Part shown: positions 6,018 to 31,188 of the stretch, one piece after another | Numbering within the stretch: position 1 is the first letter of the stretch | How the letters are laid out: each line of letters opens with the position of its first letter | Assembly: GCF_900115815.1 (NCBI RefSeq) | Contig: NZ_FOXV01000003.1 | Location: forward strand, 1 to 64,000 | Direction of reading: 5' to 3' | Source of the DNA: Roseivivax halotolerans | Lineage (GTDB): Bacteria; Pseudomonadota; Alphaproteobacteria; Rhodobacterales; Rhodobacteraceae | DNA: 64,000 nt | Program-made: the position numbers and the translations under genes | The notes under the pieces: generated by a model | Databases searched by the model: none | Told to the model about the DNA's origin: nothing | Seen by the model: only the letters and a program-made list of their open reading frames with translations

Positions 6018-7022
6018 TTACATCAGGCCCTGCTCGCTCAGATACGCGGTCAGCGCGTCGTAGACCTTCTGTGCGTTGTCCGAACGCTCGGCGACCTTTT
6101 CCCATTCGCCTTGGGCGATCTGGCGGAACTTGGCGCGCTCCTCGTCGGACCAGTCATGCACGGTCACCTCGCCCGAGGCTTTCGCCTCTTCGACGGCCTG
6201 CTGGTCAGCTTCGTTCAGCGTTTCGATCTGCATCTGCGCGAAGTCCTGGACGGACGTTTCGAGCATGGTCTGCTGCTCTTCGCTCAAGCTGTCCCACTTG
6301 GACTTGTTCATCGAGATCTCGACGAGCGGCATGGAGTGGAAACCGGGATAGACCGGGTGCGGGGCGACGTCGTGCATGCCCTGCGCCTGGTTTGTCGAGA
6401 AGACGGTGTAATCCGCCGCGTCGATCACGCCCTTGTCGAGCGAGGTGAAGACCTCGGAGCCGGGCAGGTTCACAGGAGCCGCACCTGCCGCCGCGAAGAC
6501 CTGCTGCACGAGGCCTTCGGGCGCGCGCACCTTGAGGCCCTCCAGATCGTCGACACCTTTAAGCGGCACCTTGGAGACGAACGCCTCGAGGCCCGGCGTG
6601 GTCGCGCCGATGAATTGCAGGCCATAGGGGTTCACGAGCTCGTTCATCAGCTCCTTGCCGCCGCCTTCATACATGAAGTCGAGCATTTCCTGCGGGTCGC
6701 CATAAGCGCCAACGGGGTTCGCGATCAGGCCGAAGGCCGGATCCTTGCCCGCAAAATACGAGGTGTCGGTCACGTGACCGTCGAGAATGCCCGCCGCGAT
6801 GGCGTCCTGTGTCTCGTTATGGGCGACGATGGACTCGACCGGCAGAAGCTCGATCTCGATCGCGCCGTCGCTCATATCGGAGACGCTCTCGGCCCATTGC
6901 TGCTGAAGCTGGAAATTCGGGTTGCCCGCCGGATCGGACGACTGGAAGCGCAGGGTCATGTCCTGCGCGAAGGCCGGGCCAGCAACGCTGGCCATGAGGG
7001 CTGCTATGGTCAGATGTTTCAT
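6018..7022 (-). CDS. dctP: TRAP transporter periplasmic solute-binding protein (DctP family)
   Basis: A 334-residue secreted protein with a clear Sec signal peptide (MKHLTIAALMASVAGPAFAQ, cleavage after AFA). The mature part follows the DctP/TAXI-like extracytoplasmic receptor pattern, with LKVRAPEGLVQQVFAAAGA holding the conserved Arg that normally binds the ligand carboxylate. AGAGGA precedes the ATG by a good spacing. The gene is 38 nt downstream of gntK. The neighbours suggest it binds gluconate or another aldonic acid; binding specificity itself is not readable from the sequence. Confidence 0.9.
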   Translation of the reverse strand: MKHLTIAALMASVAGPAFAQDMTLRFQSSDPAGNPNFQLQQQWAESVSDMSDGAIEIELLPVESIVAHNETQDAIAAGILDGHVTDTSYFAGKDPAFGLIANPVGAYGDPQEMLDFMYEGGGKELMNELVNPYGLQFIGATTPGLEAFVSKVPLKGVDDLEGLKVRAPEGLVQQVFAAAGAAPVNLPGSEVFTSLDKGVIDAADYTVFSTNQAQGMHDVAPHPVYPGFHSMPLVEISMNKSKWDSLSEEQQTMLETSVQDFAQMQIETLNEADQQAVEEAKASGEVTVHDWSDEERAKFRQIAQGEWEKVAERSDNAQKVYDALTAYLSEQGLM

Positions 7023-7060
7023 GATTTGGGTCCTCTTCCCTTGGTGAAATCAATGCCGGG

Positions 7061-7561
7061 TCAGGCTGTGGGCCTGACGCGGCTCGCGAAGGCCTCTGCG
7101 GCATCCACGATGTCGGTGACAGGCCGAACGATATCGATGGTCAGAACGTCCGGCCCGTCCGGCGCTTCGAGAAGCGCGAACTGGCTGTCGATCAGGCTGG
7201 CGGGCATGAAGTGGTCGCTACGCCCGGCCATACGTTCGGCGACGAGAGACCGTGACCCCGACAGGTGCACGATCCGCAGGTCGCTGAGCGCCGATGCCAG
7301 CCGGTCCCGATAGGAGCGCTTCAAGGCGGAACACGCGATGACGGTGTCCTTCCCCGAGCTCAGCGCCGCCTCTGCGATCCGGTCAAGCCAGCTCCAGCGA
7401 TCCTCGTCAGTCAGCGGATCGCCACGGCTCATCCGGGCGACTGCCGAGTCCGAATGGTAGCTGTCGGCCTCGATGAACTGCGTGCCTAGACGGTCGGCCA
7501 GCCTGCTGGCGACGGACGACTTACCCGTTCCGCACACCCCCATGACCAGCACGTGTGTCAC
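7061..7561 (-). CDS. gntK: Gluconokinase
   Basis: A 166-residue P-loop kinase that phosphorylates D-gluconate to 6-phosphogluconate with ATP, feeding the Entner-Doudoroff and pentose phosphate routes. The Walker A motif GVCGTGKS is at residues 8-15. Family-typical segments follow: IEADSYHSD, RGDPLTDEDRWSWLD, ACSALKRSYRD and GRSDHFMPASLIDSQF. The start is a GTG at 7561 with GGGAGGAA upstream. It is the first gene of the gntK-dctP-dctQ-dctM operon and is divergent from a LacI-family regulator across two operator palindromes. Confidence 0.94.
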   Translation of the reverse strand: MTHVLVMGVCGTGKSSVASRLADRLGTQFIEADSYHSDSAVARMSRGDPLTDEDRWSWLDRIAEAALSSGKDTVIACSALKRSYRDRLASALSDLRIVHLSGSRSLVAERMAGRSDHFMPASLIDSQFALLEAPDGPDVLTIDIVRPVTDIVDAAEAFASRVRPTA

Positions 7562-7594
7562 GCAAATTCCTCCCGAAATGCAGCTTTCCGCCGA

Positions 7595-7629
7595 ATGACA
7601 GCGCTATCATTAGTTGACAGCGCTGTCAT
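7595..7629. promoter_or_regulatory. Two tandem LacI/GntR-type operators between gntK and its regulator
   Basis: Two 16-bp palindromes lie 19 bp apart centre to centre. ATGACAGCGCTATCAT is at 7595-7610 with one imperfect position, and TTGACAGCGCTGTCAT is at 7614-7629. A central CG-type dyad flanked by GACAG/CTGTC is a LacI-family operator design. Both sit in the 100-bp divergent region. The second also contains a TTGACA that could be the -35 element of the regulator's own promoter, with AGGATA 16 nt later, implying autorepression. Confidence 0.8.
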
Positions 7630-7661
7630 TGGTCAAGGATAGACTCAGCAAGGAGCAAAGA

Positions 7662-8690
7662 ATGACGCAAGCGCCAAGAAAAAGCCCGCCACGCGTGACC
7701 TTGGAGGATGTGGCACGCCGCGCGCAGACCTCGACGATCACCGTCAGTCGGGCATTACGCCGCCCCGGAATGGTGTCGGAGAAGCTGCGCGAGCGAATCG
7801 CGAAAGCGGTGACCGAACTCGGTTACGTTCCCGATCCTGCGGCGAGCGCGCTTGCCTCGCGCCGCTCGAACGTCATCGGTGTTCTGATCCCGTCCGTCAC
7901 CAATTCCGTCTTCGCTGAGGTTCTGTCGGGGCTCTACGACACGATCGCGGGCAAGCCGTTCAACGCCCAGCTCGGGAACACGCGCTATGCGCCTGAGACC
8001 GAGGACGAGCTTATCCGCGTCTTCCTCAGCCAGCGGCCCGCAGGGCTCGTCGTGACGGGAATTGACCAGTCGCCCGTCTCTCGCGCCCTGCTCGCCGCCG
8101 CGGATTGCCCCGTCGTGCAAATCATGGAACTCGGCGAGACGCCCACCGACATGATGGTCGGCTTCTCGCACAGGGATGCCGCACGAACGGCAACGGATCA
8201 TCTGATAGAACGCGGCTACAAATTCCCCGCCTTTATCGGGGCCCGCATGGACCCTCGGTCGGAGCGACGATTGCAAGGCTTCCGCGATGCCATCGCGGCC
8301 GCAGATATCGCTGAGGGGGATCGCGTCGTGACCACGCCGACCCCGTCGAGCGTCACCCTCGGCGAGACCCTGCTGGCTGAGCTTCTGGCGCAAGCGCCCG
8401 AAACCGATGCGATCCTTTGCAACAACGACGACCTTGCCCTCGGCGTGCAGTTCGCCGCCCATCGCAGGGGCATCGCTATCGGTCCTGAACTTGGCCTCTG
8501 CGGGTTCAACGACATCGAGGTCATGGAAGCCGCGCATCCGTCCATCACCAGTGTGCGGACTTTCCGGCGCGAGATGGGCCGGCTGGCCATTGATATGCTG
8601 ATGGCGCGTATCGAAGGCAAAGACGTGGACGAGAACGTGCGCGACCTCGGCTACGCACTGATGCCGCGGGACAGCACGATGAGAGAATGA
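7662..8690 (+). CDS. gntR: LacI-family transcriptional regulator of gluconate uptake (GntR-like)
   Basis: A 342-residue LacI-family repressor. The DNA-binding helix-turn-helix is at residues 12-31 (VTLEDVARRAQTSTITVSRA), followed by the hinge helix (DPAASALASRRSNVIGVLIP) and a periplasmic-binding-protein-like effector domain. ATG at 7662 is chosen because AGGAG precedes it; an upstream in-frame TTG overlaps an operator and is unlikely. It is divergent from gntK and the TRAP genes. By analogy with E. coli GntR it should release its operators when gluconate or 6-phosphogluconate is present. The effector is inferred. Confidence 0.88.
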   Translation: MTQAPRKSPPRVTLEDVARRAQTSTITVSRALRRPGMVSEKLRERIAKAVTELGYVPDPAASALASRRSNVIGVLIPSVTNSVFAEVLSGLYDTIAGKPFNAQLGNTRYAPETEDELIRVFLSQRPAGLVVTGIDQSPVSRALLAAADCPVVQIMELGETPTDMMVGFSHRDAARTATDHLIERGYKFPAFIGARMDPRSERRLQGFRDAIAAADIAEGDRVVTTPTPSSVTLGETLLAELLAQAPETDAILCNNDDLALGVQFAAHRRGIAIGPELGLCGFNDIEVMEAAHPSITSVRTFRREMGRLAIDMLMARIEGKDVDENVRDLGYALMPRDSTMRE

Positions 8691-8842: not shown

Positions 8843-9424
8843 TCAGAACGTGTTGAATGACACGCCCACGAAGACGTCTTCTGACAGGAACCGATACCCT
8901 GCCCTCAAGCTCAGGCGCGTGTCCGGAATACGTTTTGAAACGGCCAAGGCGGCGTCGTCGTATGTGTCGCTTCCCCCACGGCTGACCTCGATCGCGAGCC
9001 CGGCGGACGAGATGTTGGCCTGTGCCAGCACGAACCAAGCCGAGTCGATCGTGTCATATTCAACCTGCCCGTAGAGCCCGCCGAAACCCGTGGCCCTGTA
9101 GTGATCCGCGACAAGCTTGAGCCCAATCTCGCCGTTGTCGAACCCATCTCCTGCCTCGTGTTCGATTTTGGCAGACGGTCCGATCTTGAGGCTTGTGCCG
9201 TCGGCCGAGTAAAGGGTGTAGCCAGTCGAAACGGCAAGCTGCGCCTCGTCGCCGGCAGACGAGAGAACCGAGCCGAAGGTCAGCCGATCCCGCGTCACCG
9301 ATCCCACCGCCACCGCCGTCTCGGTCGAGAAATCCGCTTGCAGGAAGGTGCCGTCCGCTTTGGCGGCTGGGGCCACGATTGTCGCCAACAGGGCTCCGGT
9401 CGCGATAGCTCCGTTCATACGCAT
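8843..9424 (-). CDS. Small outer-membrane beta-barrel-like protein, end of exopolysaccharide cluster
   Basis: A 193-residue protein with a Sec signal peptide (MRMNGAIATGALLATIVAPA, then AKA). Alternating hydrophobic/polar stretches are rich in Gly, Ser and aromatic residues, and it ends in ...VGVSFNTF. A C-terminal Phe preceded by alternating residues is the usual outer-membrane barrel signature. The length would suit an 8- to 10-stranded barrel. No specific family was recognised. It is 57 nt downstream of the Cache-HAMP gene, and as the last gene of the cluster it may help the polymer cross the outer membrane, though it is too small for a BcsC-type pore. Confidence 0.65.
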   Translation of the reverse strand: MRMNGAIATGALLATIVAPAAKADGTFLQADFSTETAVAVGSVTRDRLTFGSVLSSAGDEAQLAVSTGYTLYSADGTSLKIGPSAKIEHEAGDGFDNGEIGLKLVADHYRATGFGGLYGQVEYDTIDSAWFVLAQANISSAGLAIEVSRGGSDTYDDAALAVSKRIPDTRLSLRAGYRFLSEDVFVGVSFNTF

Positions 9425-9481
9425 TGCGATCCTCGTTATTGCATTGGAATTGCGGGCGCACGGCGTCGCAGAATTGATCGC

Positions 9482-10564
9482 CTAGTCACGCGAGAAGTTG
9501 CCGGCAGATTGCAGACGCGTCTGCAGCTTAGCCAATGTCGACGACAAGCTCGCCGCTTCGGCGGAGGAGGCATTCTCGCGCGGATAGACTTCCTCGCCGT
9601 TCGCGATGCCTTCGGCCACCCGGACAAGCTCTGCAATGGGGCGCAGCACGAGCCCGCTGATGAGCGCATAGACAAGCGAGAGTGCCGCGATCAGAAGCCC
9701 CATACCCCAGGTCGAACGCAGCTCGTCGAGGAAGCCGGGAGCATCGGGGTCGCTGGCAGGCACGCGCACGATTAGGTTCCAGCCGAGGTCGGGCACGACG
9801 AGACCGCCGACATTGCTCGCGAACGCGGAGACGAACTCTGTCGACGAGGTATCGGTGAGCACACTGGCGGGACGGCGCGGTCCGGTTGCCTGGTTCCTCT
9901 CCTCCTCCAGCAATTCATTGCCGAACAGGTTCGTGTCGCTGGCAACGACGCGGCCGTCGCGATCGACGATAAAGGCGTCGAGCCCGAACGTGTCGGCAAC
10001 GTTTTGAACGTAGCCGCGCACCCATCCGAGGCTCACCCTGTAGACGACCACCGCTTGCGGCAGCCCGTCCGGCCCCAGAACGGGTCGCGAGAAATTCAGG
10101 AACGTCTGGTCGAGTTCGTCGCTCTGGTCCGATGCGAAGACATCACCGACGCTTTTCCCGCGCAATCCATCGCGGAACCACTCTGCGTTGGAGACATCCT
10201 CCCCGACGCGCCAGTCTCTCGAGCCCGCGATGATCGTGCCTCCCGGATCCGCGATACCGGCCCAGGTGACCGCGTAGCTTGCATCGGCCGCGGCGTTGAC
10301 GAATTGATCGCGCGTGTCGGCTTGCGAGATGTCGACGTTGCGGACGACAGCCCCGAGGCTGTTCCATTCCCGCTCGATCGCCTCTGTGAACGTGGTGCGC
10401 ATCGCTTCAGCCCCACGCAGGGCACTCGCTCTTTGTGCATCGGTTTTCACTTCCTGCGTCTGGAGAAACAGCCACAGGATGGAACAGGCGAAAATCAGGA
10501 TCGCGAAAAGAATATTCCCGCCGATCACGACGACCGCGAGCCTTGGTGCAGTCATGTCTTTCAT
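9482..10564 (-). CDS. Membrane sensor with periplasmic Cache-like domain and HAMP, no output domain
   Basis: A 360-residue protein with TM1 at about residues 10-32, a periplasmic region of about 250 residues and TM2 at about 286-307. A HAMP-like segment follows (RPIAELVRVAEGIANGEE) and then a short coiled-coil tail. The periplasmic part has Cache features: EWFRDGLRGKSVGDVF, FLNFSRPV, FIVDRDGRVVASD and WNLIVRVP. No kinase, GGDEF/EAL or methyl-accepting output domain is present, so it must signal through a partner or act as a scaffold. The start at 10564 follows GAGAAG by 6 nt; longer frames upstream look non-coding. The position inside the polysaccharide cluster suggests control of the synthase. 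Confidence 0.75.
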   Translation of the reverse strand: MKDMTAPRLAVVVIGGNILFAILIFACSILWLFLQTQEVKTDAQRASALRGAEAMRTTFTEAIEREWNSLGAVVRNVDISQADTRDQFVNAAADASYAVTWAGIADPGGTIIAGSRDWRVGEDVSNAEWFRDGLRGKSVGDVFASDQSDELDQTFLNFSRPVLGPDGLPQAVVVYRVSLGWVRGYVQNVADTFGLDAFIVDRDGRVVASDTNLFGNELLEEERNQATGPRRPASVLTDTSSTEFVSAFASNVGGLVVPDLGWNLIVRVPASDPDAPGFLDELRSTWGMGLLIAALSLVYALISGLVLRPIAELVRVAEGIANGEEVYPRENASSAEAASLSSTLAKLQTRLQSAGNFSRD

Positions 10565-10871
10565 TTTCAGCTTCTCAAACAATCTCGTTTCAGGCGTCAC
10601 GCTTTGTGACCGTTGGACAGCGTCATTTTGGAGCCGCAATCCGGCTGAACTTGGGCCCGAGCGACATGCGGGCATCACGAGTATATTATCTGCTTACCAC
10701 GCTGCAAAATATTGAAACGTCTTGGAAAACCGGGACATCGAGTGACAGCTGGACGAGCCCTGCACCCGTGGGTTAACCAATGCGCCCTCAAGATGTCGGC
10801 ATGGCCCTCTCTCGCCGCGCTTTGATCGCACGCGGTCGCCTTGGAGCAGGTCTTCCAAGCGCAGCTTGGCG
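10565..10871. other. Intergenic stretch inside exopolysaccharide cluster, 307 bp
   Basis: Between the HlyD-type gene and the Cache sensor gene, with no credible coding frame. The part around 10675-10730 is much more A/T-rich than its surroundings and carries a promoter-like pair on the minus strand. This suggests the last two genes of the cluster can be transcribed separately. Confidence 0.5.
10680..10707 (-). promoter_or_regulatory. Candidate sigma-70 promoter for the Cache sensor and barrel genes
   Basis: On the minus strand TTGCAG (10707-10702) and TATACT (10685-10680) are separated by 16 nt within a local A/T-rich patch, about 115 nt upstream of the sensor start. The -10 is a good match and the -35 a fair one. 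No start-site data are available. Confidence 0.35.
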
Positions 10872-12062
10872 TTACCCGAAGACGCTTCGCACCCAATCGA
10901 GCGGACGGCGCTCGAAAAATGCACGGCCCGTTCTCCCTACCACGCAGCCCAATTCCGAATCCTGGTTCAAGGCCGGGACGCGCAGCGTGACATCGAACCG
11001 CTCGAGGTGTTGCTGGGACGGCGCGACGGCGAGGTTCCCGTAAATCCTCTCGGCGCCACTTCCCGCAAGACGGGTCACCGTCGCATCATAGATGTCGGAC
11101 TGTCCCGACATCCTGAATTCGGCGGATTGTCCGAGTGTCAGGTCGTTGTAAATCCGCTCGGTTACCGACAACGTCACGATCAAAGACTCGCAATCGAGGA
11201 TCCGCAACAGCGGATCGCCGCGCTGGACGATGACGCCGTCGGCCTGAAGCACCTCCCAGAAAAGGCCCGAGACCGGGGAAGAGAGCTGTCCCCCGCCTGC
11301 CAGTGTGGCACGCACGCGCGATTGATCGACGCGCGCCGACACAGCGTCCAAGCGCTCCTGTGCCCGCACGAGATCGGCTTCGAGCGCGGCGATGTCCGTT
11401 TCGAGCTGCATCGACAGCTGCTCCGAGACCGGCGCATCGTTGTAGCCATCTCCGAGATACACACCGGCACGCGCGGCCGCGAGTTCGATCTCCAGAACGG
11501 CCACCCGTTCCCGTGCCGAGGTGAGCGTCAAGCCTCCTTCGTCCGGGCTTTGCGTGTCAGATCCGTCCTCCGCCGGTGATCCGCCGGTTTCTGTATCCGC
11601 TTCGCCCGGCACGCTCCCCGCTTCGAGACGCTCGACGCGCTCGCGGGCGAATTCGAAGCGGGTGGCAAGCTCCTCCACTCGCCTGTCCTGGTAAGATGCA
11701 CTCCGTTCAGCAAGACGGTCGCGAGCCTGTTTCGCGGCCTCCAGGCGCTCGGTGGCATGGGTCAGTTCGGTCTCGGCGAAGGATTGCTCCATCTGCAAAT
11801 CGGACAGCCGGACGTTGTCGACGAGGCGATCCTCAACCCGCGCCAGCACTTCACCTTGTTCGACACGCGCGCCGAGAACACGGTCTTCAACGGTGAGATC
11901 GCCTGCCACCGGCGCGCGCAGCGTGACGACTTCCGCATTCACGACCGCGTTCGCGCTCGCGCCCGACATCTGCTCACCAATGATGACCCACAACGCGGCA
12001 ACAACGATCGAACCGCCGATAACAGGACGCAAATACCTCAAGGTCTGCCCTCTCTTCTTCAT
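10872..12062 (-). CDS. HlyD-family membrane fusion protein, BgsB-like
   Basis: A 396-residue periplasmic adaptor with one N-terminal membrane anchor (about residues 10-29), a split biotinyl/lipoyl-like fold and a long alpha-helical hairpin (about 85-260, heptad-rich, with an acidic Gly/Glu/Asp/Ser insert around 155-180). A beta-barrel region follows, with SPVSGLFWEVLQADGVIVQ and GDPLLRILDC. HlyD proteins normally bridge an inner-membrane exporter to the outer membrane. Here no ABC or RND pump is present and the nearest partner is a GT2 polysaccharide synthase. That pairing matches BgsB/BgsA of the Sinorhizobium meliloti mixed-linkage beta-glucan system. The shared role is an inference from gene order and domain type. 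Confidence 0.82.
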   Translation of the reverse strand: MKKRGQTLRYLRPVIGGSIVVAALWVIIGEQMSGASANAVVNAEVVTLRAPVAGDLTVEDRVLGARVEQGEVLARVEDRLVDNVRLSDLQMEQSFAETELTHATERLEAAKQARDRLAERSASYQDRRVEELATRFEFARERVERLEAGSVPGEADTETGGSPAEDGSDTQSPDEGGLTLTSARERVAVLEIELAAARAGVYLGDGYNDAPVSEQLSMQLETDIAALEADLVRAQERLDAVSARVDQSRVRATLAGGGQLSSPVSGLFWEVLQADGVIVQRGDPLLRILDCESLIVTLSVTERIYNDLTLGQSAEFRMSGQSDIYDATVTRLAGSGAERIYGNLAVAPSQQHLERFDVTLRVPALNQDSELGCVVGRTGRAFFERRPLDWVRSVFG

Positions 12063-12131
12063 CCACGCCCAGAGACAAAGGCGCGGCGTTTACCAAGATC
12101 ACCCCAGGCAAATCGAAGAAACTTGGCAACC

Positions 12132-13163
12132 TTATGGCGGTGAGCACGCCTCACCTTCCCGCTTAGCAAGATCAACAAACATGTGAAGCGTGCTCGGGAA
12201 ATATGCCTCGGAGAACGCATGTGCAGGATTGCGTGGTTCGGAAACGCACTGCGTCAAACCGGCCATCGCGAGATATCCCGGCAGGTCGCTGGTCTGAATC
12301 GGCCTGCCAGTCTCGTCTCGCGCCACGATCACGCGGCCCGTCTCGGGCGGTCCGAAAAAGTCCTGCATACGCGACAGGGCCGGATGGTCCGAGACGCCGG
12401 ACCACCGCAGGAACAGGCCCGCCCGCATGGCATCATAACTCGCGGCAGTTTCGCGATCCGCAGGAACGGCATACCCCTGCGATGTGACGTCGATCCAATC
12501 CGGCACGAAACCGCGGATCGCAAGTTCCGCGAGACAGGTTTGCCCATGATCGGCTGCCTGGATCAAACGCGGCCGGGACGCGGCCTCGCCCAATTCGCGC
12601 AATGCGCGGGGCATGATATAGGACGGGTTGAACAGAACCCTGCGTTCCGTGACGCGCGATTCCGCCGACGGTTTCAGCAGCGGCTCACTCGGGGCACGCG
12701 GATCATTGGCGAGGCAGAGATCCTCAATCGCTCCGCAGATCTCTTGCCAGGATCCCGCGTCGATCGGCCATCCTGAGTCGCGGGACGCCCGCAGCAAGGC
12801 CCAGGCGCGAAACAGATCGCCATCGGTGGCCGTGATCCAGTCTTCGCCGACAATGCCTGCATCCGGCGTCCAACGCCATGCCATGAGCGGATCCCGCCGC
12901 ACCAGCAAATGCCGGATCGTCCACCGCTCGATGCTCTCGAACGCGACGCGATCGCCGGCGGCCTGCGCGAGGAGCAAACCATATCCCTGCCCTTCGGAGT
13001 GGGAGATGCCACCCTGCTCCGGATCACTCACTCGTCCATCGTCTCTAAGGAACCGGGATTTCCAGGCATCCCAGCGCCCCGCAAACGCGCCCGCGGCCCG
13101 CACCGGCCGGGAGGCGAGGCAGGCAAGCGCTCCAGCCACGAAACTGCGGCGATTCACGGGCAT
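12132..13163 (-). CDS. Glycoside hydrolase family 8 (BcsZ-like endoglucanase), exported
   Basis: A 343-residue enzyme starting MPVNRRSFVAGALACLASRP, a twin-arginine-like export signal (N-R-R-S-F). GH8 motifs follow: SEGQGYG at about 56-62 with the probable acid Glu57, then ATDGDLF (about 112-118) and a later FNPSYIMP region. GH8 enzymes cut beta-1,4-glucans with inversion and often accompany cellulose synthases as BcsZ, where they trim nascent chains. The ATG at 13163 is 13 nt after the synthase stop and follows GAGGA. A longer open frame runs into the synthase and is rejected. The natural substrate here could be cellulose or a mixed-linkage beta-glucan. Confidence 0.85.
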   Translation of the reverse strand: MPVNRRSFVAGALACLASRPVRAAGAFAGRWDAWKSRFLRDDGRVSDPEQGGISHSEGQGYGLLLAQAAGDRVAFESIERWTIRHLLVRRDPLMAWRWTPDAGIVGEDWITATDGDLFRAWALLRASRDSGWPIDAGSWQEICGAIEDLCLANDPRAPSEPLLKPSAESRVTERRVLFNPSYIMPRALRELGEAASRPRLIQAADHGQTCLAELAIRGFVPDWIDVTSQGYAVPADRETAASYDAMRAGLFLRWSGVSDHPALSRMQDFFGPPETGRVIVARDETGRPIQTSDLPGYLAMAGLTQCVSEPRNPAHAFSEAYFPSTLHMFVDLAKREGEACSPP

Positions 13164-13176
13164 GGGGCGATGTTCC

Positions 13177-15147
13177 TCAGCTTCTGAATTGCAAGCGGCG
13201 GGCCACGTCTCCGAGTATCGCGGTGATCCGCACGTTAGACACACCCGGTGCCGTGCCATCGGCATAAAAACGCAGAAACAGCGCTTCGCGTTGCTCAGGC
13301 GTCGGGGACAATTGCAGGCGTGCACCGTCGCGTGTGGGCGCGATCACGTAGCTCTCGACATCGCCGACCCCTTCGATCCGCAGCATGCCTCGGTCGTCGG
13401 GAGCGAAGGCATGTCCGCGGATCCGCGCGGTGTCGCTCGTCAGGGAGACGAGCCAGACGCTGTGTGCCGCCGCCCCGCTCTGAAAGACTGCGCGTTCCGG
13501 CGCATCGGCGACGTGCCGCTCCCGGCGCGGCAGCTCCACGCAAGCAAGGCAGGTGATGCTGAGAACGACAAGGTTGTAGACCGTCCAGAACAGAACCACC
13601 CATTTGCCGTCACCGGCGTCGTTATAGGCGAAGCCATCGAAGAAAATGCCGAGGCAAAGCCCGATAAAGGTCAATGCAAGCAGGATCGCGAAAGGCGCCA
13701 TGATCCGCCACTGGATCACGATGCGCGACCGATCCCCGCCCTTGGCCGTGACGGAAAACGGATGCCCTTTGGGTTTCAACAGACCCACGATCGCGGCTCG
13801 GCTGATCGGGATCGCGGCGATCAGCTGGCTCACATCATGGAGCAGCGGCAACACCATCCTCGGTGCCAGGAGGTTCATCGCGAACTGCACCCAGATGTAG
13901 AATACGCCGAAGTAGATGAGGACATCCTCAAGGCGGGCATCGACGACGATGATGTTGAAATACCAATAGAGCAGCGGAAAGGTGATCGCGGCGATGCGGA
14001 AGACGAAGCTCGGCAACCAGTAGAAGACCGAGTCGATCACGCTCCACCGGTTGCGCAGACGCAGGTTGTTCTTCGCGAAAGGACCGACCGAGGATCTGGC
14101 GATCTGCATGAGCCCCAGGCACCACCTTGCCCGCTGGGTGACGTATTCCTTGAGCCCTTCCGGCGCGAGTCCTTCGGTCAGCGGCTCGTTCAGGTAGACC
14201 GTCTTGTAACCTTTCTCCTGCATCTTGAGCGACAGGAGAAAGTCCTCGGTCACGCTTTCGGTCGGCATCTTGCCGATCTTCATCAAGGCGTCGTAGCGCG
14301 CGATCGACGAGGTGCCGCAGCAGATCGTGATCCCCCACGCATCGCGCGAGGATTGCATGTAGTCGAAGAAGAAACGCTGCTCGTCGGGATAGGACCGCGA
14401 GATGTTGAGATTGTGCTGGATCGGATCGGCATTGAAGAAATGCTGCGGCGTCTGCACAACGCCCACATCCGGGTCGTGGAACAATGCCAGCGAGCGCGAG
14501 ACAAAGCCCCGGTGCGGCACGAAATCGGCGTCGAGGACGGCGACGAATTCGGGCGGCTCGGCATCCTCGGCGAGCCGCTCGAGCGCATGGTTGATATTGC
14601 CGGCCTTGGAACCTTTGTTGTCCGGTCGGCGCATGTAGCGCACACCTTGGCCCGCGCAATAGTCCTGCAACCAGTCGCGGCGACCGTCATCTAGGACAAG
14701 GATTTCCTTGTTCTGGTAGCGCAGCGATTTCGCGCCGACGATGGTGCGTTCCAGCACCTCGAGTTCCTCGTTATAGGTCGCGATAAGGATCGCGACCCGC
14801 GGCGCTTCGTTTCCCCACCATCCTGCGTGCTGATCGGCCTCGGTGCTGCGGTCGCGATACCGCGACAGGATGACGAAGGCGGAAAGCGAGCCGACGAGTG
14901 CGCACAGCTCGAGTGCCAAGAGCGCGCTGCTGGCGGCGAAATCCAGCGTCAGCCCGACCGGGGCGAGCGTCTCGGTCGCCCTCCACCAAGCGTATCGCAG
15001 GGCCAGCAAGAACGCGATGCCGAACAGAAAGCTGCGATGCCACACGTTCTTTCGGTCGACAAACGCGCTGAAGACGAGGCCGAGCCCCACGACCAGCATC
15101 ATCTGCATGAATGCCGATCCAAGCGATCCCAGTTGCGGGAAGTACAT
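13177..15147 (-). CDS. Processive GT2 beta-glucan synthase (cellulose synthase-like, BgsA-like)
   Basis: A 656-residue inner-membrane glycosyltransferase with three N-terminal hydrophobic segments. The cytosolic GT2 domain has DDG (153-155), DAD (206-208), TED (300-302, catalytic Asp) and QRARW (338-342, binds the acceptor chain), and several membrane helices follow. The C-terminal tail (about 536-656) is soluble. It has arginines at 541, 542 and 544 but no clear RxxxR...DxSxxG PilZ signature. The length and missing PilZ match BgsA of S. meliloti (mixed-linkage 1,3/1,4-glucan) more than BcsA, which is longer and partnered by BcsB. GAAGGAA precedes the ATG. It is the first gene of the cluster and uses UDP-glucose if the family role holds. 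Confidence 0.88.
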   Translation of the reverse strand: MYFPQLGSLGSAFMQMMLVVGLGLVFSAFVDRKNVWHRSFLFGIAFLLALRYAWWRATETLAPVGLTLDFAASSALLALELCALVGSLSAFVILSRYRDRSTEADQHAGWWGNEAPRVAILIATYNEELEVLERTIVGAKSLRYQNKEILVLDDGRRDWLQDYCAGQGVRYMRRPDNKGSKAGNINHALERLAEDAEPPEFVAVLDADFVPHRGFVSRSLALFHDPDVGVVQTPQHFFNADPIQHNLNISRSYPDEQRFFFDYMQSSRDAWGITICCGTSSIARYDALMKIGKMPTESVTEDFLLSLKMQEKGYKTVYLNEPLTEGLAPEGLKEYVTQRARWCLGLMQIARSSVGPFAKNNLRLRNRWSVIDSVFYWLPSFVFRIAAITFPLLYWYFNIIVVDARLEDVLIYFGVFYIWVQFAMNLLAPRMVLPLLHDVSQLIAAIPISRAAIVGLLKPKGHPFSVTAKGGDRSRIVIQWRIMAPFAILLALTFIGLCLGIFFDGFAYNDAGDGKWVVLFWTVYNLVVLSITCLACVELPRRERHVADAPERAVFQSGAAAHSVWLVSLTSDTARIRGHAFAPDDRGMLRIEGVGDVESYVIAPTRDGARLQLSPTPEQREALFLRFYADGTAPGVSNVRITAILGDVARRLQFRS

Positions 15148-18314: not shown

Positions 18315-18430
18315 GGGCCGCGCGGTGCTTGCCCCCCCGAGGGGTGCGACCGGACCCGGCCAGTCAGGGGCCTGTTAGGCAGGACAAGTCCACAACTCTT
18401 GTGCTCCTTTTATTGCTGTGACAGCCTCGG

Positions 18431-18518
18431 TCTCGCAACAGGGGCGTCCGCCATGCGCGGGCTGAGAAGCACCCTTCGAACCTGAACCGGATCATGCCGG
18501 CGGAGGAAGTTGCGGAGA
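18431..18518 (+). promoter_or_regulatory. TPP riboswitch aptamer (THI element)
   Basis: The conserved thi-box core is present: GGGG at about 18441, GCTGAGA at 18461-18467, ACCCTT then CGAACCTGAACCGG, and ATGCCGGCGGAGGAAG. The closing P1 helix can be drawn between GCAAC (18435-18439) and GTTGC (18509-18513), extended by CTC/GAG. Binding of thiamine pyrophosphate should shut the downstream thiM-thiE-thiD operon. The sequence between the aptamer and thiM offers a Shine-Dalgarno switch, annotated separately. Confidence 0.95.
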
Positions 18519-18547
18519 TGGCCCCGAAAGGTGAATGCCGTCTGCCG

Positions 18548-31111: not shown

Positions 31112-31188
<77 letters not shown>

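Follow-up and report, generated by a model that had tools for sequence, protein, structure and literature searches.

The stretch of DNA analysed here, referred to as the window, comprises 64,000 nucleotides (nt) of contig NZ_FOXV01000003.1 of Roseivivax halotolerans (GCF_900115815.1; genome of 3.77 Mb in 45 contigs, 99.79% complete), and the system in question is a putative polysaccharide synthesis cluster at positions 8843–15147. A frame check confirmed five open frames there, all on the minus strand, as a preliminary description of this DNA had stated. They encode a processive polysaccharide synthase of family GT2 (13177–15147, 656 amino acids (aa)), in which the catalytic motifs D, DAD, TED, QRARW and FSVTAK are present; a GH8 glycanase with an RR (Tat-like) signal (12132–13163, 343 aa); a HlyD-type periplasmic adaptor with an N-terminal membrane helix (10872–12062, 396 aa); a Cache-HAMP membrane protein (9482–10564, 360 aa); and a small predicted outer-membrane barrel with a signal-like N-terminus and a C-terminal F (8843–9424, 193 aa). 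The corresponding Pfam scores are 77 bits for GT2, 145.6 for GH8, 44.5 for HlyD_3 and 39.6 for dCache_1. The last of these lies just below the curated value of 45, which the Agrobacterium C58 orthologue passes with 45.6 bits, and HAMP scores 15.5 bits in the window protein and 30.2 bits in an Azospirillum orthologue; NCBIfam also supports the GT2, GH8, HlyD and Cache-HAMP calls. The listed GH8 frame starts at 13325 and overlaps the GT2 gene, and its likely start is the ATG at 13163, 13 nt past the GT2 stop. The Cache frame is open from 10678, with a likely start at the ATG at 10564. Because this leaves a gap of about 300 bp behind the HlyD gene (10565–10871, minus strand), the locus probably consists of two units, GT2-GH8-HlyD and Cache-barrel. 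The gap contains a single promoter-like match at 10708–10680; the region scanned gave two such matches against 1.1 expected, and thus no sign of function for this one.

The synthase was compared with BgsA from Sinorhizobium meliloti 1021 and Rhizobium etli, with BcsA from Paracoccus yeei, E. coli and, taken from a PDB alignment, R. sphaeroides, and with the protein of a crdASC-like set on pTiS7/73 (L090), which served as the CrdS reference, since it has each of the seven CrdS residues named in PMC6821405 at the same number. The maximum-likelihood tree contained 69 rows, after a Leptolyngbya cyanobacterial GT2 (L061, end branch 8.1) and the long rows L117 and L118 had been dropped; L050, whose GT2 is split over two frames, stayed outside the trees, and L079 and L056 are duplicates of L039 and of the window, respectively. 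In this tree the window GT2 falls within a clade of its own (39 rows, support 100/98), and BcsA (12 rows), BgsA (6) and CrdS (5) form separate groups, each with support of 100/100. The clade is made up of 30 core rows (Rhodobacterales, Agrobacterium and other Rhizobiaceae) and nine early-branching rows (Azospirillum, Bradyrhizobium, Phyllobacterium and further kin). Among 299 sampled genomes of the phylum, all matches joining the clade came from the same class; five matches were found in other classes, and the four that were placed all group with BcsA. No second close GT2 is present in the R. halotolerans genome, the next match being 28% identical over residues 199–347. Membership in the BcsA group was rejected on the tree, as the preliminary description had expected, and on the lack of a BcsB match in the same genome. 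Its label of a "Bgs type" cluster could not be kept: the GT2 is 34–37% identical to BgsA and lies outside the BgsA clade, to which its own clade may be sister (approximately unbiased (AU) test p 0.528; the tree holding the two together is better by 1.23 log units). CrdS was rejected as well, since it forms a separate clade and has H374, E439 and H442 where the window protein has D372, D438 and Q441. Judged by its sequence, the synthase is of a type other than those making cellulose, curdlan or mixed-linkage glucan.

The three residues just named belong to the channel entrance, where residues have been proposed, by modelling, to set the linkage of the product (Oehme et al., PMC6821405). All 39 rows of the clade carry D (36) or E (3) at the position of CrdS 374, D (39) at 439 and Q (39) at 442. 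The corresponding residues are H/E/H (one Q) in CrdS, P/S,T/G in BgsA, N,S/E/E in BcsA and E/D/E in the f93 relatives of CrdS. Among the groups aligned, the D(E)/D/Q combination is therefore peculiar to this clade. At Q235, Q257 and R268 the window GT2 agrees with BgsA, and it lacks the BcsA residue at every compared channel-entrance position that is uniform within a group. Oehme et al. described a clade without assigned function (clade 4), which might be this clade or another.

Gene content was compared across 30 non-redundant core loci, the window included. HlyD lies near the GT2 gene in all 30, in line with the pairing of a processive GT2 with a HlyD partner described earlier, Cache in 29, GH8 in 15 and the barrel in 13. 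The sensor, the glycanase and the barrel are thus borne out as members of a conserved cluster, and HlyD, GT2 and Cache occur together in 29 of the 30 loci. All five genes are found in only 10 (two culturable species that carry all of them are Sulfitobacter indolifex DSM 14862 and Loktanella atrilutea DSM 29326), and the Cache gene lies on the strand opposite to GT2 in 26 of the 29 core loci that have it nearby. A fixed five-gene operon is therefore rejected; the arrangement of all five on one strand holds for the window, and what is conserved elsewhere is the trio. GH8 and barrel occur together in 10 loci, GH8 alone in five, the barrel alone in three and neither in 12 (Fisher p 0.025, uncorrected for ancestry). 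When the frames of the core loci were clustered, no sixth dedicated partner emerged: besides the five families and antisense shadows of them, the clusters contained only generic neighbours, for example ABC ATPases and TRAP permeases. CtrA-like sites precede the GT2 unit in eight of 30 loci, none of them the window; plain shuffles would give 3.0, and the signal is too weak to interpret.

The cluster is found in marine and soil bacteria, and Agrobacterium fabrum C58 has orthologues of HlyD, GT2 and Cache as a set on its plasmid pAt (L038, record 92157–96448). Counting accessions from phoB (Atu5119) gives Atu5091 for HlyD and Atu5089 for Cache if phoB is ATU_RS24530, and numbers two off if it is ATU_RS24520; the set is probably Atu5089–Atu5091. 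Atu5091 has appeared in print as "rcdB, curdlan synthesis protein". If phoB is ATU_RS24530, two reports also bear on this set: Atu5091 is down in a pdhS2 mutant (log2 −1.32) and has a putative CtrA site (PMC7003649), and the HlyD and Cache proteins are both listed in detergent-resistant membranes (PMC8656257). We found no description of the HlyD-GT2-Cache set in the literature searched, the coverage of which leaves out most subscription journals.

The C-terminal domain of the synthase (residues 541–656; 13177–13527, minus strand) is predicted to adopt a PilZ-like fold without the RxxxR and DxSxxG motifs. The canonical motifs for cyclic di-GMP (c-di-GMP) binding are missing in all 30 core tails: DxSxxG occurs in none, and an RxxxR string occurs in four, downstream of the expected site. 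Both motifs are kept in eight of the nine early rows, two of which score 47.5 and 48.0 bits with Pfam PilZ. The same loss is seen in BgsA (0/6), whereas all six BgsA-like relatives keep DxSxxG, and in CrdS (0/5), whereas all three f93 relatives keep both motifs. Profile comparison with hhalign gave 96.8% for the core tail against the PilZ-bearing early tail, 95.7% against CrdS and 91.0% against f93, with 0.1–1.5% for four unrelated controls. An AlphaFold2 model of the window tail, built on a three-row alignment, has six strands and a helix (mean pLDDT 77.8, about 93 over most of residues 11–80), and its top Foldseek matches are PilZ proteins, PlzA, BcsA and Alg44 among them (probability 0.99–1.00, TM about 0.5–0.6). 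The profiles and the model together favour a PilZ domain from which the canonical c-di-GMP motifs have been lost. The core tails have conserved residues of their own. The BgsA tail aligned at 96.5% with f93 and at 94.9% with the early tails; for BgsA of L057 and L065 against near relatives with PilZ tails (L114–L116 and L046–L049), the hhalign values are 96.5% and 93.4%. The C-terminal c-di-GMP domain of BgsA has been described in print as not PilZ. Since its profile aligns with the PilZ tails of its relatives, it is probably a diverged PilZ domain as well.

The Cache-HAMP protein ends shortly after its last helix, with 42–65 further residues in 26 of 28 rows and 97 and 98 in the other two; P347, P366 and E374 (numbering of the frame from 10678) are invariant in all 28. 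This tail leaves space for HAMP and not for a known output domain, and Pfam scans of three Cache proteins found none after HAMP. An ordinary Cache chemoreceptor or histidine kinase was therefore rejected. A profile built from 11 Cache proteins, with the five best candidates scored per genome, detected the protein in 21 of 394 genomes of the family at E ≤ 1e-20 (weakest 9.6e-52) and in none of the other 373, and these 21 are exactly the genomes with a GT2 of at least 56% identity. In one of them (G149), the Cache gene lies on a 3.31-Mb contig and GH8-HlyD-GT2 on a contig of 174,678 bp, with no Cache near the GT2, so that the link between sensor and synthase is more than positional. Extra Cache-HAMP copies occur in G144 (three) and in G159 and G229 (two each), and Mesobaculum (L008) has two adjoining the GT2 gene. 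Six of the nine early loci keep the PilZ motifs and have no Cache match nearby, and a Bradyrhizobium barranii locus and 29 of the 30 core loci have Cache without PilZ motifs. Though based on few events, this pattern fits the replacement of c-di-GMP as input by a ligand in the periplasm, and the synthase may be under the direct control of an outside signal, via a sensor without known output part.

For the small barrel, Pfam gave no match up to E 10, nor did it for any of five barrels tried. Its AlphaFold2 model, from a three-row alignment, has 12 strands (mean pLDDT 82), and in Foldseek it comes closest to KdgM porins (E 7.7e-6, TM 0.55/0.60). It thus resembles KdgM and NanC in its predicted 12-strand architecture and differs from them in lacking a sequence family match; NanC, OmpG and a designed 12-strand barrel match too. 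The barrel occurs in 12 of the 394 genomes, 11 of them within the 21 that have Cache and GT2. It adjoins Cache in G149 and is unlinked in G321. In the exception (G291, L133 7398–10038), which has neither Cache nor core GT2, the barrel adjoins another GT2 of CelA-like type; on this distribution, the barrel tracks glucan-type synthases.

The 15 GH8 proteins of the cluster come out as a single group of limited support (80/91) and fall together with four Rhodobacterales BcsZ at 98/97, as expected if they were recruited from BcsZ. All 25 rows retain the Glu of the HSEGQ region; at the YDA position, the bcs GH8s vary between D, E and N. The absence of BcsB reported earlier holds for the whole genome of R. 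halotolerans, in which we obtained no match with a model of modest sensitivity, as it scores BcsB at only 30.5–41.6 bits in four relatives of the family. BcsB is present in six of the 21 GT2-bearing genomes, so the cluster is no simple replacement of cellulose. Two TolC-type proteins are encoded in the R. halotolerans genome, both on other contigs; by frame reading, one is solitary and the other is accompanied by an ABC exporter, a further HlyD and a large protein with repeats. Such proteins are encoded in all 21 genomes searched, the closest about 33 kb from the GT2 gene.

With these components, the cluster resembles several known systems without coinciding with any of them. Like BgsBA of S. 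meliloti and R. etli (PMC9495663 and PMC10819609, which describe the bgsBA and crdASC gene sets), it has a tandem of GT2 and HlyD-type adaptor, no BcsB and a tail without PilZ motifs. It differs from BgsBA in its synthase clade and channel residues, and the bgsA loci compared gave no match to Cache, GH8 or barrel. In the curdlan system CrdASC, the HlyD-like CrdA adjoins the GT2 (83 bits with our HlyD profile in L090, 4408–9341; likewise HlyD-like in L062, L063, L123 and L124), so that a GT2 paired with a HlyD-type adaptor is common to the curdlan, mixed-linkage and present systems. The tails of both lack PilZ motifs, whereas CrdASC has CrdC where the cluster has GH8, SED in place of TED and its own H/E/H(Q) signature. 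Cyanobacterial XcsABC combines GT2, HlyD and an endoglucanase without BcsB, and in the model proposed for it TolC comes from a gene elsewhere (PMC12430437); XcsA is described there with a canonical PilZ domain, the accessible part of that report mentions no Cache or barrel, and the likeness is one of described gene sets. The preliminary description had regarded the composition as undescribed, which holds only in part, as the combination of GT2, HlyD and endoglucanase is that of XcsABC, and a HlyD-like protein lies beside a GT2 in CrdA and CrdS too. With BcsAB(Z)C, the cluster shares the GT2 fold, the catalytic motifs and the kinship of GH8 with BcsZ, and it differs in lacking BcsB and in a synthase outside the BcsA group whose tail is without PilZ motifs.

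The genes adjoining the barrel (window 6018–8690) encode a LacI regulator, a gluconate-kinase-like protein and a TRAP DctP protein. A tie of the cluster to the adjacent LacI, gluconate-kinase-like, TRAP and CoA-transferase genes was rejected, as phmmer found kin of LacI in two, of GntK in one, of DctP in one, of CaiB in one and of GST in none of 29 loci. A TPP riboswitch (18430–18525, plus strand, 65.7 bits) and a tRNA-Arg(CCG) gene (31112–31188, minus strand) elsewhere in the window bear no relation to the cluster.

We interpret the cluster, with somewhat better than even confidence, as a BcsB-free system for the synthesis and secretion of a beta-glucan, belonging to a clade of its own and equipped with a dedicated Cache-HAMP regulator. 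The gene content, the clade, the motif loss, the co-occurrence and the modelled folds form the basis of this interpretation, and from them we infer the product, the coupling to TolC, the direct gating and the cargo of the barrel. We propose the following hypothetical sequence of events, in which (i) GT2 would polymerise a glucan, probably from UDP-glucose, and thread the chain through its own membrane channel; (ii) HlyD, taking the place of BcsB as proposed for XcsB, would couple to a TolC-type pore encoded elsewhere, the likely exit; (iii) GH8, presumably recruited from Rhodobacterales BcsZ, would cut back the chain within the periplasm, a step confined to about half of the species; (iv) the Cache-HAMP protein, as dedicated regulator and probable gate, would read a ligand with its periplasmic domain, and its HAMP, ending without output domain, would act by direct contact on synthase or adaptor, a control that may have taken over from the PilZ domain that lost its canonical motifs; and (v) the barrel, paired with the Cache protein, may let the glucan, or pieces of it, cross the outer membrane, serving either as an alternative exit to TolC or as a pore for the fragments that GH8 makes. 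A more specific version, which we regard as speculative and rather unlikely, has the Cache-HAMP stub as obligate partner of the GT2 clade; on sensing a ligand in the periplasm, which might be the glucan itself or fragments of it, the stub would gate the synthase by protein contact and so supplant the PilZ/c-di-GMP switch. The product in this version would be a bacterial beta-glucan of a fourth class, distinguished by its linkage pattern, and would leave via HlyD together with either TolC or the dedicated 12-strand barrel.

Several observations weigh against this interpretation. Aligned directly, the core tail gives only 3.5% to BcsA tails, and none of the PilZ matches of the tail model in Foldseek falls below E 0.001. 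Two Azospirillum-type loci have Cache together with intact PilZ motifs. The chance figure for the co-occurrence of sensor and synthase (2.7e-35) ignores ancestry and overstates the case, as the co-occurrence has few independent origins and was scored on five candidates per genome with a profile from mostly GT2-adjacent proteins. No TolC-type gene lies near the GT2 in any of the 21 genomes searched, which also leaves the earlier suggestion of a self-contained system unsupported, and TolC is so common in such genomes that its presence is weak support. Finally, the R. halotolerans genome holds four GGDEF and two EAL matches, and BgsA still binds c-di-GMP without PilZ motifs, through R599 and H615 (PMC5567048), so the loss of the motifs is no proof of independence from c-di-GMP. 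The tail might accordingly bind c-di-GMP by another site, as BgsA does, with the Cache protein as an added layer or with a different task, for instance the placement of the synthase in the membrane. With c-di-GMP enzymes in the genome and residues of their own conserved in the core tails, this is a serious possibility, to which we give slightly less than even chances; the direct alignment of the core tail with the BgsA tail, only 9.0% in hhalign, means that the BgsA site is not transferable.

The product and the role of the accessory genes can be read differently as well. The same three gene types in cyanobacteria, the grouping of GH8 next to Rhodobacterales BcsZ, which would need beta-1,4 bonds, and CelA as the best NCBIfam name of the GT2 (365.9 bits, far below the cut-off of 699.1) would suit an Xcs-like cellulose system making a plain beta-1,4-glucan, in which HlyD and GH8 do the jobs of XcsB and XcsC. 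We consider this somewhat unlikely, because the GT2 lies outside the BcsA clade without BcsA residues at the group-uniform channel-entrance positions and because GH8 is missing in 15 of 30 loci. Less probable still is a distant Bgs system producing a mixed-linkage (1,3;1,4) glucan: the HlyD-GT2 pairing as in bgsBA, the shared Q235, Q257 and R268 and a possible sister position to the BgsA clade agree with it, whereas BgsA forms a separate 100/100 group and the D,D,Q at 372/438/441 contrasts with P,S/T,G of BgsA in all 39 rows (E counted with D at 372). Cache and barrel could also constitute a module for uptake and sensing of glucan fragments released by GH8, outside the control of synthesis, given that the two travel together away from GT2 in G149, that the barrel model is nearest to an oligogalacturonate porin and that GH8 and barrel tend to co-occur. 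This is improbable in our view, as Cache is present in 14 of the 15 core loci without GH8 nearby, and so is independent of GH8 and barrel, and neither an uptake transporter nor a catabolic gene is conserved among its neighbours.

In summary, a BcsB-free beta-glucan system with a dedicated Cache-HAMP regulator would add a separate branch to the HlyD-coupled synthases that do without BcsB. It offers a testable regulator, a sensor present in exactly the sampled genomes of the family that have the synthase, yet without an output domain, and it bears on how GT2 enzymes may be switched without canonical c-di-GMP motifs. Since the clade varies at positions proposed to determine linkage, it also bears on linkage control in beta-glucan synthases. 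Tests are feasible, as Agrobacterium C58 carries one member on its plasmid pAt and culturable marine type strains carry others.

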